Shown here one piece after another: positions 373 through 34,446 of a DNA stretch of 64,000 nt; position 1 is the first letter of the stretch; the number at the start of each line of letters is the position of its first letter. The DNA is taken from positions 1 through 64,000 of the forward strand of contig JAQMWT010000529.1 of the NCBI GenBank assembly GCA_029834535.1, written 5' to 3'. The stretch is from Chrysophaeum taylorii. Its lineage: Eukaryota > Sar > Pelagophyceae > Pelagomonadales > Pelagomonadaceae. A program made the translations under genes and the position numbers. The notes beneath the pieces were generated by a model, which saw only the letters and a program-made list of their open reading frames with translations, was not told the DNA's origin and searched no databases.

Positions 373-3273
373 ATGTATCAAGACTTGGTTGCGTTTGTTG
401 ACGATATTATGATGGGATCCGACGATCTTCATCGACATTTACAAGTTTTGATCGAAGTGACGTGTCATTTGGCACAGAGAGGGTGCAGCGGTCGAACCGC
501 GAAGTTCCACCTTCTCAAGGATGATATAGAATTTCTGGGACACATTTCTACCCCAGAAGGCTTGAAGCCGAATCCGAAGACGCTGGAAGCACTGCAGAAG
601 ATGCCGACTCCAGGTACTTTACCGAATACTTCCCCGAAGACCCAGATACGCTCTTTCATCGGCATGAGTAATTACTGCCGGCGATATGTGAAGGGCCACT
701 CGAAGATTGTGGAACCGTTGAGACGACTATGCCTCGAAGGTGTAAAGTTCGAGTGGACGCCCGAGTGTCAGAAAGCTTGGGATACGATTATTGAAGCTTT
801 CGTTGATTCCCGTGGAGTCTACCATCCCGATTATGATCTGCCTTTTCAGATCCGATCCGATGCTTCCAAGGATGGACTTGGAGCATATCTCTTCCAGAAG
901 ATTGTCGAAGTCAAGGACGATGCCGGAAGAGTGACTCGAGAAGAACGAGTGATTGAATATTGGAGCCGAGCTGTGCCGAAGGAGATGCGCAATTATGAGC
1001 CCCGTCGGTTAGAGCTGCTGGCAGTTATACTTTCTCTAGAGCACTTTCGAGCCGACATCGAAGGGCGCCGTACTGTTTTGGAGACCGATCACCGAAATTT
1101 GACGTTTTTACGTAAGGCGACGTACTCGTCTGGGCAGCTTGCTCGTTGGGTGATGCGCCTCGCCAATTTTGACCCTGAACTTGGTTACAAGCCGGGAAAG
1201 TCATCGGGAATGAGTATCCCTGACTGTTTCTCCCGCAGCCCGATAGATCATGTCATCGAGACTGACGAGTTTGGAGAACCTTTGAACCACGCGTATTTAG
1301 TGTTCCAAGAGCTCCCCCGACCTGTTGATGACCGAGGAGTTCCCGTCTCCGGCTGCCACTTCATAATGTCGTTTATTACGACCGAACTGCCGGAAGACGA
1401 AGACGAAGACCCTGAAAAGGATCCGATGAAGTTGGCTACGTCTCACGCTACGAGACAACGTCGGAAGAACCGTGCGCGCGATGAGCCACAGATCTTCAAG
1501 GACGCAGCCGCTTACAAAGATTATATCGATAAGATACCCGATAATATGACGCTCGCTGAGATCGCACGTGAGCAAGAATCTGATGCTACTTGCGAGGATA
1601 TTCGCTACCGAATGGCCCAAGGTCAGACGCCGCGACGTTTCCGAGCGAACGAACGATTCGAAGTCGTTAAAGATGTTCTTTACCGCATTTCTGCTGATTT
1701 GCACCCGATGATTGTTGCACCTGCTACGTTGCGCAAGCGAATTATTCGACTCTACCATGACACTCCGGTTAACGGTGGTCATATGGGACGTCACAGTACC
1801 GTCCAGGCTATCCAAGAACGATTTTGGAGGCCTCACATGTCGAACGAAGTTGGAGTCTTCATTTCTGAATGTTTAGTTTGCCAGAAAGCTCGTACGACTG
1901 AGCCGAAACGAGCTGGGCTCTTGCAGCAGCCCGTCTACGACGGTGATTGTGCTGTTCTTTGCATGGATTTATTTGGACCCTGGCCCAGCGCTGGTCCCGA
2001 GACGTATCTTCTAGTATTTTTTGATCCGTTCTCGCATTTCTTGATTCTGGATGTTTTGAACGATAAGACTGCTGAGTCCGTTCTCGAGTCTTTTGTCATT
2101 AACATTCTCCTCAAGGGCTACTTGCCCCAGATGATTCGTACCGACAACGGTAAAGAGTTCGTGAACAAGTTGATGCGCGAGTTTTGCCATCTCTTTAACA
2201 CACGATACCAAACTACGATTCCTTATCATGCCCAGTCGAACCCGGCTGAGCGTGTCAACCGATTTATCAAGGCCTTCCTCCGTGCTTGCCTTCAAGGCCG
2301 GAACATCACGGATTGGCCTGACTTTGCTCATTATATTGCGTTTTGCTACAACCGCAAGTTTATTCCAGGCACGCAGATCTCTCCCTTTATGCTGCGCCTG
2401 AACCGTCAGCCGATGCTACCGACTGACTACACTCTCATGGATTTTGATACACGATTCTTGCCGAAGACTCGCTCTGATGCAGTCGCCGAGACTCGCGAGC
2501 GATTGAAATATTATACAAAGATCGTCCGCGAGGCTCGTGATAAAGCTTTGAAGAAACAGCGATTGGCTTACAATGCTGATCATGTTGATGTTGAATACAA
2601 GGAAGGATCGCACGTTTTGCTCTACATTCCTTTCCTTCAGAACAAACTTCGACCGGAATGGCGAGGTCCGTTTATTATCAAGGAACGCCTTTCCCCGGTC
2701 ATCTATAGAATTGAGTCTCTCGACTCTCCGCCCGAAACACGACGTGTTCATGTGAGTCGTGTTTATGTTAGTCAGATCACGCCTGTGATGGTACCTCCGA
2801 TCGTTGATCAAACCATCCGAAAACCCGAAGAAACCTTCCGTGATGATTATCAGCACGGCAAGTTTGTTGTTTTCCGGATTCCTGACCGGAAGCGCTCTGA
2901 TTGGCGCAAGAAGATTTATGTTGCCGAAGTTTACGAGCCTTACGATTATCAGAATGATCGTGTTGCTCTACATTTCTATTCCGATTTGGGTCCGAACGAT
3001 GATGTCGCCTATTTCAAGCCGACCTCTCACCTTTCGCACCGCAAGCTCAAGCCCGAGTTCAAGGACGTTGAAGGTCGAAGTTTCACCGACAAGTCCCGAA
3101 TTTCCTCCAACACAACTCCTTGTGTCACGGATTTCGCTCCACACGAGATTGACGTGTTGATACCCAAGTTTACTTTACGCAGTGGTCGAGTTCCTGAACC
3201 GATCATCACCCGCGTTTACCAGAAGATTCGTTCACGAGATGCTCGTAAGGCGAAGCCGCGCTCCTCGCGATAG
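373..3273 (+). CDS. pol: Ty3/gypsy pol fragment (RT end, RNase H, integrase)
   Basis: A 966-codon open stretch. It begins inside reverse transcriptase with the catalytic box FVDDI (near 400), continues through the RT thumb and an RNase H segment with SDASKDGLGAYL (near 860), the HHCC zinc finger of integrase (CLVCQ, 1760-1890) and the integrase core with the DLFGPWP, TDNGKEF and glutamate blocks (1960-2250). The C-terminal portion has the beta-barrel-like text common after Ty3 integrases; no clear chromodomain was seen. Fossil of a retroelement, incomplete at its 5' side. The long open frame suggests a fairly young insertion. Confidence 0.85.
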   Translation: MYQDLVAFVDDIMMGSDDLHRHLQVLIEVTCHLAQRGCSGRTAKFHLLKDDIEFLGHISTPEGLKPNPKTLEALQKMPTPGTLPNTSPKTQIRSFIGMSNYCRRYVKGHSKIVEPLRRLCLEGVKFEWTPECQKAWDTIIEAFVDSRGVYHPDYDLPFQIRSDASKDGLGAYLFQKIVEVKDDAGRVTREERVIEYWSRAVPKEMRNYEPRRLELLAVILSLEHFRADIEGRRTVLETDHRNLTFLRKATYSSGQLARWVMRLANFDPELGYKPGKSSGMSIPDCFSRSPIDHVIETDEFGEPLNHAYLVFQELPRPVDDRGVPVSGCHFIMSFITTELPEDEDEDPEKDPMKLATSHATRQRRKNRARDEPQIFKDAAAYKDYIDKIPDNMTLAEIAREQESDATCEDIRYRMAQGQTPRRFRANERFEVVKDVLYRISADLHPMIVAPATLRKRIIRLYHDTPVNGGHMGRHSTVQAIQERFWRPHMSNEVGVFISECLVCQKARTTEPKRAGLLQQPVYDGDCAVLCMDLFGPWPSAGPETYLLVFFDPFSHFLILDVLNDKTAESVLESFVINILLKGYLPQMIRTDNGKEFVNKLMREFCHLFNTRYQTTIPYHAQSNPAERVNRFIKAFLRACLQGRNITDWPDFAHYIAFCYNRKFIPGTQISPFMLRLNRQPMLPTDYTLMDFDTRFLPKTRSDAVAETRERLKYYTKIVREARDKALKKQRLAYNADHVDVEYKEGSHVLLYIPFLQNKLRPEWRGPFIIKERLSPVIYRIESLDSPPETRRVHVSRVYVSQITPVMVPPIVDQTIRKPEETFRDDYQHGKFVVFRIPDRKRSDWRKKIYVAEVYEPYDYQNDRVALHFYSDLGPNDDVAYFKPTSHLSHRKLKPEFKDVEGRSFTDKSRISSNTTPCVTDFAPHEIDVLIPKFTLRSGRVPEPIITRVYQKIRSRDARKAKPRSSR

Positions 3274-5060: not shown

Positions 5061-6302
5061 CTAGGAGAGGTCAGGGGTGACATGACCGGTGAGGAAGGCA
5101 GTATCGCGGTCGAAGAGGTCGGCGTCCTCGTTGGAAACGAAGACTTTGGCGTAATTGAGCTTGGTCTTGACGTACTTGTAGGCACAGTCGTACGTATCAA
5201 CTACGCAAATGAGGGCATTGGGGGCGATTCGCAGATGGCGCAAGTTAGGCGACAGAAGACGGCGACGGACGATCTTCAGTGCCGGTTGGTTATCACACCA
5301 TACCGTGGTGCGAGGCGGCCGGACCCCTTCGAGGATCTGGATGAGGCGGCGCACGCCAAGAAGGCGACGGACAGTGTGAGACAGGGCTAAGATGGCAATC
5401 TCAGGCGTGCTGTGGCATGTCGCAGAGACGCGCCGACTGGCCCCGGAGACGCAGGCCCCCTGGAGGAGAACGGCACCACCGAAGCGCGAGAGGGCAGAGC
5501 CGTGCGCACCGCGAGCGAGCTCACAGCCAAGACTCTCGTCCGTATAAGCAGAGAGGTGAAAGGCGCCTCGGTAGGCAGCAGAAAACAGGATGCCAAGGTC
5601 CCGGTGAGCCGCAAGCCAGCGCAGGGCACGGTCGAGGGCCCGAGCGTGGCGCTCGGACCACACGTTTACGGCGGTGGCCAGGACGTGAACCGTGCGCGCG
5701 AAGGTGGGCAACGTCGCCCGCGTGAACATGAGCAGACCAAGGGCCTCGCGTGGGTTGATGGCGAGCGCGGCACGGACGTCGCCGCTGTCGGCCGTCTTGT
5801 CGGGTACGTGGGGGTCGACGTTGAAGTCCAGGTGCATCGGTGTGGCAGGCCCGACCGTGAGCGAGCCGTAGCCGAGGTGACCGAGGACCTTGTCGATGTA
5901 CGGGCGCTGGTGGGCGAAGACAGAGCCATCGGCACGGTAGTCGAGGGTGATGCCGCAGATGTCGTGAGCGACGTCGTCCCACGTCATGACAAAACGGTCG
6001 CTGAGCGCAGCGCGTACTTCAGCCACGGCGTCCGGTTGGCCCGCGAGCGGAATGTTGTCGACAACGCTGATGAGTACCGTCGGCGGCCCAGTATCTTCAT
6101 AGCGGTAGAAGAAGCAGGGGTGGTACGGCGATTCGAGGAAGCCAAGAAGGCCGAGGTACTCGACGAACGTCTCATACCACTTGCGGCCCGCATGGGGCTG
6201 GCCGTAGACAGGGAGCGTGAGCCACAGCGACCGAGCCGGGTCGTATCGTTGGTCCGGAGGAAGGTCTGCCATGTAGTCGCCGATGTGGCGAGGCGGGCGC
6301 AT
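5061..6302 (-). CDS. pol: Copia RT end and RNase H
   Basis: A 413-codon stretch. It includes copia RT text such as LPVYGQPHAGRKWYE (the copia LYGLKQAPR-type block), a region around LISVVDN where the family has its YVDD box, and then the RNase H part (ILALSHTVRRLLGVRRLIQIL, CDNQPALKIV, LRHLRI) that in copia elements forms the C-terminus. Fossil. Confidence 0.75.
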   Translation of the reverse strand: MRPPRHIGDYMADLPPDQRYDPARSLWLTLPVYGQPHAGRKWYETFVEYLGLLGFLESPYHPCFFYRYEDTGPPTVLISVVDNIPLAGQPDAVAEVRAALSDRFVMTWDDVAHDICGITLDYRADGSVFAHQRPYIDKVLGHLGYGSLTVGPATPMHLDFNVDPHVPDKTADSGDVRAALAINPREALGLLMFTRATLPTFARTVHVLATAVNVWSERHARALDRALRWLAAHRDLGILFSAAYRGAFHLSAYTDESLGCELARGAHGSALSRFGGAVLLQGACVSGASRRVSATCHSTPEIAILALSHTVRRLLGVRRLIQILEGVRPPRTTVWCDNQPALKIVRRRLLSPNLRHLRIAPNALICVVDTYDCAYKYVKTKLNYAKVFVSNEDADLFDRDTAFLTGHVTPDLS

Positions 6303-9872: not shown

Positions 9873-10066
9873 AGCACCCTTCCTCGGCGGCCTTTTGGCT
9901 AAGATCAAGCGTAGTATCTGTTCTTATCAGCTTAACAAACGTTGATATCTATGGCACAGTGCCATAGGTATGGTTAACCGAAGTTGTGCGCCTCGCATTC
10001 ACCGCGGCGCGTGCGCCCGGCAGGTGTGCTCGGTCTTGCGCTACCGCCGAGCGATGCCGGCCTAAC
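9873..10066 (+). ncRNA. U2: U2 spliceosomal snRNA
   Basis: The 5' third matches the near-universal U2 sequence: CGGCCTTTTGGCTAAGATCA (stem I and following), then GTAGTATCTGTTCTTATCAG. The branch-point-recognition hexamer GTAGTA is at 9911-9916. Next come a stem IIa (ATCAGC...GTTGAT) and a perfect IIb hairpin (CTATGGCAC/AGTGCCATAG). Near the 3' end is a hairpin (CCGGCA...TGCCGG) with an apical TTGCGCTACC loop like the U2B'' site TTGCAGTACC of other U2s. U2 pairs with the intron branch point in the spliceosome. A canonical Sm site (ATTTTTGG) is not visible, so it may be a divergent functional gene or a variant/pseudogene. Exact ends are estimates. Confidence 0.85.
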
Positions 10067-17850: not shown

Positions 17851-18606
17851 ATGAGTCGGCGGCAGCGCGGTGAAGAGCTCCAGCAGCGGCTCGAGGATCT
17901 CGTCCGCGAGACCCAGGACCTGAAGCGAGCGCTCGCGCGGCAGCCGAAGCGGGGCCGGGAATCGCGGCCCCGGAGCTCGTCAAAGAGGCCGAAGCGCGAA
18001 GAAGCCCCCGGGCGCGTGAAGTGGGTGTCTGCAGAAGACGACGCCAAGAGCGTAGGTCGACTCATCGTGGGCGCCGCGATGGCCTCGGCCGTCGTGGGGT
18101 TCCCCGTCTCCTTGCACGCCAAGTACGAGGCCAACGTCAACACGGCCCTCAAAGGCGTGGCGATAGCTACGAAGAGATGCGCCGAGGAACAAGGTACGTA
18201 CGTTGCCTGTGCCCCGAGCTTTCGCGAGAACCGGAACGAACTCACCGTCACGGTGGTCAAGCTTGCCGGCGCCCCCGCGGTCCTCGACGGCGGAAACGTC
18301 TTGACCGTTGCGCGCGCGACCGACTACCGCGTTCTCGCGGGAGCGGTCGCGAAACGGGCTCGCGACGACGCTGCTTCTGTTCTCCGGGCCATCGGGGCTG
18401 CCGCTGTCTTCGCGGCCGCGCGCGCCCTCGCAACCTGCCGCGAATACCTCGAACAAGACGGCGACGACACCGACGTCGTCGCCGTGCCGCGCTTCTCCAA
18501 AGTTCGCGTCGACGGCCGCGACGGCGAGACTACCGTCCTTGAACTCTGCGTCTTTCCTTCCACCCCCGCGACCCCCCAAGAAGACCCCCACCTCAACGCC
18601 GACTAA
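17851..18606 (+). CDS. Protein with two SpoVS-like (Alba-fold) domains
   Basis: 251 residues from ATG 17851. An N-terminal coiled coil (residues 8-30) and a basic stretch with PKRGRES and SSSKRPKR (possible nuclear signal) precede two related domains at about 56-137 and 149-236. Each follows the SpoVS pattern: a V-x-VS/VAR strand, a helix with GxLxxGA-like text (SVGRLIVGAAMASA; VLAGAVAKRARDDA), an ALKGVAIATKR / ARALATCREYL helix and a late VACAPSF / VVAVPRF strand. SpoVS is a small Alba-like nucleic-acid-binding fold known from sporulating bacteria and also reported in some algae. The tandem arrangement with a nuclear-type tail suggests an RNA- or DNA-binding nuclear protein (inference). Confidence 0.7.
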   Translation: MSRRQRGEELQQRLEDLVRETQDLKRALARQPKRGRESRPRSSSKRPKREEAPGRVKWVSAEDDAKSVGRLIVGAAMASAVVGFPVSLHAKYEANVNTALKGVAIATKRCAEEQGTYVACAPSFRENRNELTVTVVKLAGAPAVLDGGNVLTVARATDYRVLAGAVAKRARDDAASVLRAIGAAAVFAAARALATCREYLEQDGDDTDVVAVPRFSKVRVDGRDGETTVLELCVFPSTPATPQEDPHLNAD

Positions 18607-32244: not shown

Positions 32245-34446
32245 ATGCGGTCCGTTGTAAACAGGGTCATGTCCATAAGAATGGCACCGGCGCCGCCGCC
32301 CATGCCCCAGAACGTGCCGATGCCCGGGGTGAAGGTCCTGCGGATCGGGACGGCCTGGGAGGATTTCGTGGGTATCGGGGACGAGATCGCCGTGATCGAG
32401 ACCAAGGGGGAGTGGGTGTACGGCGAGACGAACGACCTTCGGCGCGGCTGGGTCCCCGTAGGGTGTGCCTCGGAGCAGATCGACTTTGTGTTTTCGAAGA
32501 AAAAGAAGTCCCCCGTCGAGGGTCTCCTCGCGAGGGAACGCGAATACTGCCGTCAGCTCGAAATCGTGATCGCGACCGTCGTAGATCCGCTGCTGAAAAG
32601 TTGCGACACGCCGCAAAAGCGGTCGCTCGCGCAGGAGGCGTCGGTCGCAAAGACTTTGGGGGCCTTCCCCGCGATGCTCCAGCTCTCCCGCGAGCTTCAG
32701 AACAATCTCCGCGGGGACGTCGACGCTGCCCTAGAAGATCTCGCGAGGGCGATCCCGCGTCGATACCAAGCTTACGCGAACGCTCACGCGTCAGCGATTT
32801 CGCTGCTCGGACGCCACTGGGATGTTGACGAGGCTCTTCTCTATCTCCCAATCCAGCGGTGCTCCGAGTACGCCGCATTTGCCGAAACGATAGGTTCCCC
32901 CGCTCTCCTCGCCCTCCGGAACGCCGTCGCGCCCGTCCAAGCGGCCGCGACCGTGTCCCGGAACGCGCAGCTCTTCGCGCGGCTCCGCCTCGGCGGGTTT
33001 AAGGCGCATTCGACCCTCGCCTTGACCTTGGATGTCATGAAGGTTTTGAAGGGCAAGCCGCGCACGCGACGCACGCTGGTGCTCCTCGACGACTCTCTCT
33101 TGGTGACGAAGGGTCGGGACGCGCTCAAGGTGCGCGCGACTCTAGATCTAAAAGACGTCGAGGCCGTTCTCGAGGACGAGGAGACATTCACCTTGGTCGC
33201 GGGAGACCGTCTCGAATTTTCGCCTCTCGAGTCGCCGACCGAATGGATTTCCAGCCTCCGGGCCCAGCTCCGCGCGCCCCAGCGCTCCCGGGGTAAGGGC
33301 CGCCGCGGCTCCGCCGGCTTATGGAGCCGCCTTCAAGACAACAAAACACCCCAAAAAAAAGCCGCGAAAATGCCCAAACAACAACCACCACCACCTTTGA
33401 TGGTCGAAAAGCAAAAACCAAAGCCACCCCCCACCCCGCCCGCCGACCACCTCCTCTCGCGCCGCGTACCGCCTCCGCCGTCGGCGGTGCCTCGGGCAGC
33501 CTCCTCCTCATCCCCTGTACCTCCGGCTGTGCCACCGCCGCCGCCTATGCCTCCGGCGGTGCCACCACCTCGTGTGCCCCAGCTTGCCACAACACCGCCC
33601 AAGGGACCCGCACCGCTCCCTCGTGTCCCGCGGGTTTCCGCACCACCATCCCGGCAGGTTTCCGCGCCGCCGCCTGCGCCCCAGGGATCGCCACCACCGT
33701 CTGCGCCCCAAGCTGCTGCTGCACCTGGACCACCACCTCGCATGCCCCAGGCTGCGACGCCACCACCGCCTAAGGCTGCGCCGCCACCACCACCGCCTGC
33801 GCCCCATCCTGCACCACCGCCACTCCCTACGACGACCCATGCTGCGCCACCGCCTGCGCCCCAGGCTGCGCCACCGCCTGCGCCCCAGGCTGCACCACCG
33901 CCTACGCCCCAGGTTGCACCACCGCCTACGCCCCAGGCTGCACCACCGCCTACGCCCCATCCTGCACCACCGCCACTCCCTACGACGACCCATGCTGCGC
34001 CACCGCCTGCGCCCCAGGCTGCACCGCCGCCTACGCCCCAGGCTGCACCACCGCCTACGCCCCAGGCTGCACCACCGCCTGAGCCTACCACACTACCACC
34101 GACTGCGCCCCAGGCTGCACCACCGCCTGAGCCTACCACACTACCACCGACTGCGCCCCAGGCTGCACCACCGCCCGCTGTACCGCCGCCTGCGCCCCAT
34201 GCCGCATCCCGCGCTACTCCTCCACCCACGCCCGACACCTCCTTGATGGCAGCACTTCGAGGCGGCGCGCGCCTCAGGCGCGTCTCTGTCCGACTCTCAG
34301 CCAAAGAACCCCCAAAAAAAGCCCAGGAGGGCGGCGCCCTCGCCATGATTGCCGCCGCGATGGACCAGCGTCGCTTCAAAATCCAGGATAATGACGACGA
34401 CGACACCGATGACGACTGGTCCTCCTCGAGCGACGAAGACGATTAG
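32245..34446 (+). CDS. SH3-RhoGEF-PH-polyproline-WCA fusion protein
   Basis: 733 residues from ATG 32245 (ATGs at 32269 and 32281 are alternatives). Residues 31-75 look like an SH3 barrel (GDEIAVIETKGEWVYGE, then RRGWVPVG). Residues 88-235 fit a DH (RhoGEF) domain: LLAREREYCRQLEIVI as the first conserved region, a central SRELQNNL helix, and LLYLPIQRCSEYAAF as the LLKPVQRxxRYPLLL-type third region. Residues 262-342 fit a PH domain ending PTEWISSLRAQL. A proline-rich tract of about 280 residues follows, with repeats of APQAAPPP and APPLPTTTHAA. The C-terminus is a WCA module: WH2 (SLMAALRGGARLRRV, 666-680), central helix (GGALAMIAAAMDQRRFKIQ, 696-714) and acidic tail with a lone Trp (W725). 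DH-PH domains load Rho GTPases with GTP; WCA modules bind actin and activate Arp2/3. The combination implies one protein coupling both at a membrane. Confidence 0.85.
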   Translation: MRSVVNRVMSIRMAPAPPPMPQNVPMPGVKVLRIGTAWEDFVGIGDEIAVIETKGEWVYGETNDLRRGWVPVGCASEQIDFVFSKKKKSPVEGLLAREREYCRQLEIVIATVVDPLLKSCDTPQKRSLAQEASVAKTLGAFPAMLQLSRELQNNLRGDVDAALEDLARAIPRRYQAYANAHASAISLLGRHWDVDEALLYLPIQRCSEYAAFAETIGSPALLALRNAVAPVQAAATVSRNAQLFARLRLGGFKAHSTLALTLDVMKVLKGKPRTRRTLVLLDDSLLVTKGRDALKVRATLDLKDVEAVLEDEETFTLVAGDRLEFSPLESPTEWISSLRAQLRAPQRSRGKGRRGSAGLWSRLQDNKTPQKKAAKMPKQQPPPPLMVEKQKPKPPPTPPADHLLSRRVPPPPSAVPRAASSSSPVPPAVPPPPPMPPAVPPPRVPQLATTPPKGPAPLPRVPRVSAPPSRQVSAPPPAPQGSPPPSAPQAAAAPGPPPRMPQAATPPPPKAAPPPPPPAPHPAPPPLPTTTHAAPPPAPQAAPPPAPQAAPPPTPQVAPPPTPQAAPPPTPHPAPPPLPTTTHAAPPPAPQAAPPPTPQAAPPPTPQAAPPPEPTTLPPTAPQAAPPPEPTTLPPTAPQAAPPPAVPPPAPHAASRATPPPTPDTSLMAALRGGARLRRVSVRLSAKEPPKKAQEGGALAMIAAAMDQRRFKIQDNDDDDTDDDWSSSSDEDD
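33390..34200 (+). repeat. Proline-rich coding repeats of the WCA protein
   Basis: DNA repeats of 24-27 bp (CCTACGCCCCAGGCTGCACC and variants) and a longer unit containing CTCCCTACGACGACCCATGC (near 33820 and 33975) encode the polyproline region, the likely profilin- and SH3-binding part. The near-identity of units suggests recent unequal exchange. Confidence 0.8.

Follow-up and report, generated by a model that had tools for sequence, protein, structure and literature searches.

A predicted WASP-type nucleation-promoting factor with a divergent SH3-DH-PH head in Chrysophaeum taylorii

What distinguishes one subfamily of the WASP family from another is the head. In the textbook scheme, the Rho GTPase signal to the WH2-central-acidic (WCA) module comes from a separate exchange factor. 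The order SH3-DH-PH is found at the N-terminus of Asef, collybistin and PIX, the last of which is a guanine nucleotide exchange factor (GEF), and intersectin has an SH3E-DH unit. To our knowledge, none of these exchange factors (Asef, collybistin, PIX, intersectin) carries a WCA tail. In one study, intersectin is described as engaging N-WASP in trans (PMC2892021), and the main text of a survey of the WASP family has zero occurrences of the terms "RhoGEF" and "PH domain" (PMC3298513).

Here we describe an open reading frame from C. taylorii whose predicted product joins an SH3-DH-PH head to a polyproline tract and a WCA tail. If a single chain has both the fold of an exchange factor and a WCA tail, either switch and output are coupled in cis or the DH fold has been reused as a sensor. 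On balance, comparison of the sequence with profiles and folds points to a probable WASP-type nucleation-promoting factor, in which the divergent head may dock to the membrane, and perhaps to a Rho GTPase, more than act as an efficient exchange factor.

Organization of the reading frame

Analysis of the window (the whole stretch of DNA analysed, 64,000 nucleotides) revealed a frame with no internal stop over 733 codons and with an in-frame stop 5' of its ATG. The initial annotation had placed SH3-like, DH, PH-like, polyproline and WCA segments in this order on one chain, and that order was borne out on a single intact predicted frame (Table 1). In the genome searched, that of the pelagophyte alga C. 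taylorii (70.8 Mb and 697 contigs, with 84 matches to the light-harvesting family), matches to the N-terminal 368 residues fell at one place, as expected of a single copy.

Table 1. Predicted features of the 733-codon frame, in window positions
Feature	Position	Strand	Residues	Remarks
Whole ORF	32245..34446	+	733 aa	ATG to TAG; one own-genome match; other frames closed by stops
SH3-like domain, divergent	32320..32469	+	26-75	Pfam SH3_2 E 3.4e-4, 20.7 bits (cut-off 21.8)
DH (RhoGEF) domain	32506..32991	+	88-249	profiles, hhalign, fold matches; G93, E208, Q232
PH-like domain	33007..33279	+	255-345	Pfam PH E 0.29, RHG20_PH E 0.063
Polyproline tract	33370..34218	+	376-658	Pro 125/283 residues; 24-base tandem units
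WH2 motif	34237..34290	+	665-682	aligned with L013/L014 tails and N-WASP
Central (C) helix	34330..34386	+	696-714	aligned to N-WASP and own WAVE-like tails
Acidic tail with W725	34387..34443	+	715-733	

That no standard family has the order SH3-DH-PH-polyproline-WCA, as had been supposed, agreed with the homologue and literature searches, in which none was found. Residues 20-370 gave no match at E <= 10 among 5.8 billion proteins (7997 candidates scored) and the WCA region gave none at E <= 1 (154 candidates scored), in searches that need shared short words, so that distant relatives may escape them and the ORF's own protein was likewise unlisted. Two stretches in viral contigs fitted a pattern and neither was confirmed, and no GEF-WCA protein was found among the papers listed from the open-licence literature, as judged by titles and abstract openings. 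As these searches yielded no relative that shares the order, it has no support from conservation. The protein is best described as a predicted WASP-type factor with a new head, known from one genome.

Elsewhere in the window, a 251-residue frame (17851-18603, +) contains a SpoVS domain (E 1.4e-19), whose family is named after a bacterial sporulation protein, and a U2 spliceosomal RNA gene lies at 9878-10066 (+; 86.8 bits). Two regions (373-3270, +; 5064-6302, -) are retrotransposon-like, with matches to RNase H and integrase that pass the cut-off and matches to reverse transcriptase that do not. At another locus of the genome, L020, the C. taylorii protein P0001 (CTAYLR_006802) aligned at 91.6% over 391 residues; by eye, this deposited model lacks in-frame segments that are present in the genome and in the relatives P0002 and P0004, and gene models of the C. 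taylorii genome may over-call introns.

The SH3-DH-PH head

RhoGEF homology of the segment first described as DH-like was confirmed by profile, hhalign and fold match, with a Pfam score below threshold. The Pfam RhoGEF model matched the DH region alone at E 2e-5 and 25.3 bits (cut-off 27.6), and a DH profile from the same genome scored 31.0 bits compared to 5.5 or less in 2000 shuffles (1279 gave a score); on these profile scores the predicted DH match is beyond chance. The value from hhalign was 95.9%, with an alignment that extends into the first half of the PH-like region. Ten matches at nine loci, all above cut-off, were returned by a Pfam RhoGEF search of the genome, and the 733-residue ORF was absent from them. 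Searching the PDB by phmmer with the DH region alone returned two matches, the better to a putative hydrolase (E 0.38) and the other to PIX (E 1.3); single-sequence evidence is thus weak, and the case for the DH domain rests on profiles and folds.

A single-sequence AlphaFold model was rejected as unusable (pLDDT 33.7); its best two fold matches were DH/PH structures (E 0.06-0.09, probability 0.12-0.20), followed by unrelated folds. A second model (pLDDT 50.7), usable over the DH domain only, matched DH folds that included Asef, collybistin and the intersectin SH3E-DH unit, a match that was partly steered because four of the five rows of its input were RhoGEFs. Its SH3 and PH parts had pLDDT values below 50 nearly throughout. 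The structure prediction and profile search that the initial annotation had proposed were informative in part: the DH fold was recovered in the partly steered model, while SH3 and PH stayed at low confidence, and the RhoGEF and SH3_2 models came below their cut-offs, PH gave the value in Table 1 and WH2 gave nothing. An abnormally truncated DH domain was considered and rejected, as the distance from E98 to the PxQR motif is 104 residues, compared to about 105 in locus L007, at the short end yet within range.

The proline-ligand groove of an SH3 domain is made by the ALYDY tyrosines, a Trp, a Pro and a terminal Tyr. In the SH3-like domain W57 and P71 are kept and the ALYDY and terminal groove positions carry no Tyr, the sole Tyr being Y59, which suggests that the usual aromatic groove is incomplete. 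Because the groove tyrosines are missing, binding of this domain to the polyproline tract is doubtful, and the earlier proposal that it folds back on the tract to autoinhibit the protein is not supported. An alternative form of control would be packing of the SH3 domain on the DH domain, by analogy to Asef or intersectin; SH3-DH inhibition in intersectin is described as working without the PxxP groove (PMC2892021).

The SH3 and PH assignments are weaker than that of the DH domain. An SH3 profile, for which 14 of 16 SH3 stretches retrieved from the same genome were used, scored 12.9 bits, a narrow margin over the best shuffle (12.1 bits; 5000 shuffles, 4258 scored), and the best two of five phmmer matches in the PDB were unconventional myosin IB chains (E 0.04-0.05). 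For the PH-like region, strands followed by a C-terminal helix were present in two low-confidence models, which, like the hhalign alignment, fits a PH domain; a PDB search with this region returned CIDE-A alone (E 0.64), and no PH domain was matched.

We take Tiam1 residues E1047, K1195 and N1232 to be the GTPase-contacting DH positions (the CR1 Glu, the CR3 Lys/Arg and the helix-6 Asn, respectively). Aligned through locus L001 as a bridge, with the chain offset set by hand, these residues correspond to G93, E208 and Q232. All 11 aligned RhoGEFs have the CR1 Glu, and 10 of the 11 have Lys or Arg at the CR3 position, with Asp in one; the helix-6 position is Asn in six and Asp in five. E92 directly precedes G93, and E98, together with the P and R of PxQR, is invariant in a nine-row alignment. 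Solved PIX has Asn at the CR1 Glu position (phmmer alignment), so loss of this Glu alone is compatible with activity. Of the proposal that the head is a GEF, the DH homology stood, and an active exchange factor was not supported.

The WCA tail and the actin machinery of the genome

The WH2 motif, central helix and Trp-bearing acidic end noticed at the outset were confirmed by tail profile and reciprocal searches, with Pfam silent on WH2. The last 74 residues align over all three elements with the tails of two WAVE-like WH2 proteins in the genome, L013 and L014 (34 and 38% identity), and a profile of these two tails scored 35.3 bits compared to 14.9 for the best of 5000 shuffles (4997 scored, with composition correction off). 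A six-frame search of the genome with the L013 tail retrieved itself, its paralogue and then, at E 2.4e-4, the tail of the 733-residue ORF. From 16 candidates scored, this search gave 13 rows at E <= 10, and the 10 rows weaker than the ORF tail began at E 0.002. Reciprocally, the ORF tail retrieved itself and then the gene of L013 (E 4.4e-4) among six rows, the next being at E 0.005; by eye, WH2-C-A was absent around the match in the four weaker rows (L075 to L078). All three PDB sequences matched by the tail were N-WASP or N-WASP chimeras (E 0.035-0.11). The Pfam WH2 model made no call on the tail, and a genome-wide search with it at E <= 10 found four places, the ORF tail not among them. Judged by these alignments, the predicted C-terminus is a WH2-central-acidic module, and a proline-rich region lies ahead of it, as in the WASP family.

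The machinery on which such a tail would act appears to be encoded in the genome. Two places in the genome matched ARPC2, a subunit of Arp2/3, with best E values of 3.2e-48 and 6.2e-19, and this subunit alone suggests that the organism has Arp2/3. From 59 Ras-family matches, 30 loci were retrieved, and by eye these include a Rho-type GTPase (L059), whose effector loop is PTVFDN, together with two divergent Rho-type GTPases (L066, L069). Matches to CRIB, from proteins read by eye, were a PAK-like kinase and, below cut-off, a CRIB-RhoGAP; neither of these two CRIB genes found in the genome was a CRIB-bearing WASP, which agrees with the loss of WASP in algae and stramenopiles given in the published survey (PMC3298513).

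Several other loci of the genome combine related parts. The WAVE-like WH2 proteins (L013:253-1722 and L014:1240-2862, -) share a contig, separated by about 4.5 kb, and each has a Pfam match to CCDC53, a WASH complex subunit (E 3.5e-14 and 1.2e-10). A 1502-residue frame (L018:1139-5644, G000:C471) has a strong RhoGEF match (E 5e-42), sub-threshold leucine-rich-repeat and PH-type matches and a polyproline acidic tail; by eye its product is CARMIL-like and has DH-PH built in, which makes it a counterpart of CARMIL-GAP in Dictyostelium. A frame of 1897 residues (L021:948-6638, G000:C47) combines a sub-threshold PDZ match with an array of WH2 repeats, 13 by simple pattern, and its product may nucleate or sequester actin through these multiple WH2 units. 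L019:715-3588 encodes a RhoGEF-PH-FYVE protein whose long polyproline tail contains repeated KWPPP motifs.

Proposed mechanism, rival readings and comparison with known systems

On the reading we favour, a WASP-type factor with a docking head, the protein would be brought to a membrane site by its PH domain and possibly its SH3 domain. The DH domain would bind a Rho-type GTPase, as a docking or sensing surface more than as an efficient exchange factor, since the residues that usually contact the GTPase are replaced. The polyproline tract would feed profilin-actin and SH3 partners, and the WCA tail would hand actin monomers to Arp2/3, starting branches at that site. The head would fill here the role that WH1-GBD fills for WASP and the WAVE complex for WAVE.

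The DH domain could instead be active, making the protein a Rho exchange factor and Arp2/3 activator in one chain, with GTPase loading and branch nucleation coupled in cis. The DH homology (profiles, hhalign and folds), the Arp2/3 subunit and Rho GTPases of the genome and the retained E98 and PxQR are consistent with such an enzyme, and E92, PxQR and the Asn of PIX, a GEF, at the CR1 position leave room for real exchange activity. However, the changes of E to G, K/R to E and N to Q occur together at the GTPase contacts, and the DH domain falls below the Pfam cut-off that the other 10 genome matches listed pass. Together the three substitutions make full DH exchange activity less likely, the replacement of the usual GTPase-contacting residues being what argues against it, and we regard an active enzyme as unlikely though still a substantial possibility. 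The "short circuit" from GTPase to branched actin first imagined for this protein needs such an active DH; it was a hypothesis rather than a reading of the sequence, and it loses ground with the catalytic positions substituted. Also doubtful, and put forward tentatively, is a pseudo-GEF, in which the DH domain has been converted to a GTPase-sensing head that binds a Rho GTPase through its former docking face and releases or positions the WCA in cis, in a genome where the search found no CRIB-bearing WASP. If true, the pseudo-GEF reading would add a subfamily to the WASP family and put the DH fold to a new use.

These readings presuppose one chain. It is improbable that DH-PH and polyproline-WCA are expressed apart, as two genes or messages, from a start at M376, M386 or M435 or through an unseen intron. 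The two halves do have these three Met codons between them, and by codon score frame 0 ranks last of six across the repetitive polyproline part, which therefore gives no coding support. In contrast, the frame is unbroken, whereas the five alternative frames hold 16, 3, 4, 5 and 5 stops over the N-terminal part and 1, 3, 4, 1 and 12 over the polyproline part; across the short tail a single reverse frame is open as well. On either side of the polyproline part, the same frame shows a coding-like bias by codon position: GC at the three positions is 0.67/0.46/0.79 in the N-terminal part and 0.68/0.51/0.71 in the tail, low at the second and high at the third, as in nine stretches of the genome that are supported by homology. 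In both parts frame 0 scores highest of six frames. In addition, the polyproline repeat periods (24, 48, 105 and 153) are all multiples of three. A decaying gene, in which drift removed the DH and SH3 positions and the frame merely happens to stay open through the polyproline minisatellite, would fit the divergent domains, the substituted catalytic residues and the lack of relatives among those searched, but 733 codons without a stop, and WCA motifs that are whole at the extreme C-terminus, where decay would easily remove them, make it very improbable.

Comparison of the protein with described systems places its tail with the WASP family and its head elsewhere. Like N-WASP and WASP, it has a polyproline tract followed by a C-terminal WH2-C-A; unlike them, its head is SH3-DH-PH, where Pfam gave no WH1 or CRIB, and two stretches of the N-WASP chain align with its single WH2. 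Pfam at E <= 10 on the whole protein called RhoGEF only and no WH1-GBD, WHD, WAHD or IMD head, and residues 26-345 are occupied by SH3-DH-PH; the silence of Pfam carries little weight because the WAVE heads of L013 and L014 are also uncalled. L013 and L014, whose N-termini we take by eye to be WAVE-like, share polyproline followed by WH2-C-A with a Trp-bearing acidic end, and differ in that their other Pfam match is CCDC53, with DH, PH and SH3 not called. The SH3-DH-PH exchange factors have the N-terminal order of the 733-residue protein in common, and its catalytic positions differ from those of Tiam1 and the 11 relatives. Entamoeba WAML (IMD-WAID-polyproline-VCA) likewise joins a VCA tail to a non-standard membrane-acting head lacking a Rho-GTPase binding domain, although that head is an IMD rather than SH3-DH-PH (PMC3298513). 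Finally, Dictyostelium CARMIL-GAP also combines a Rho-GTPase regulator and an actin regulator in one chain, pairing a GAP with capping-protein regulation where the C. taylorii protein pairs a predicted DH-PH with WCA (PMC9270954).
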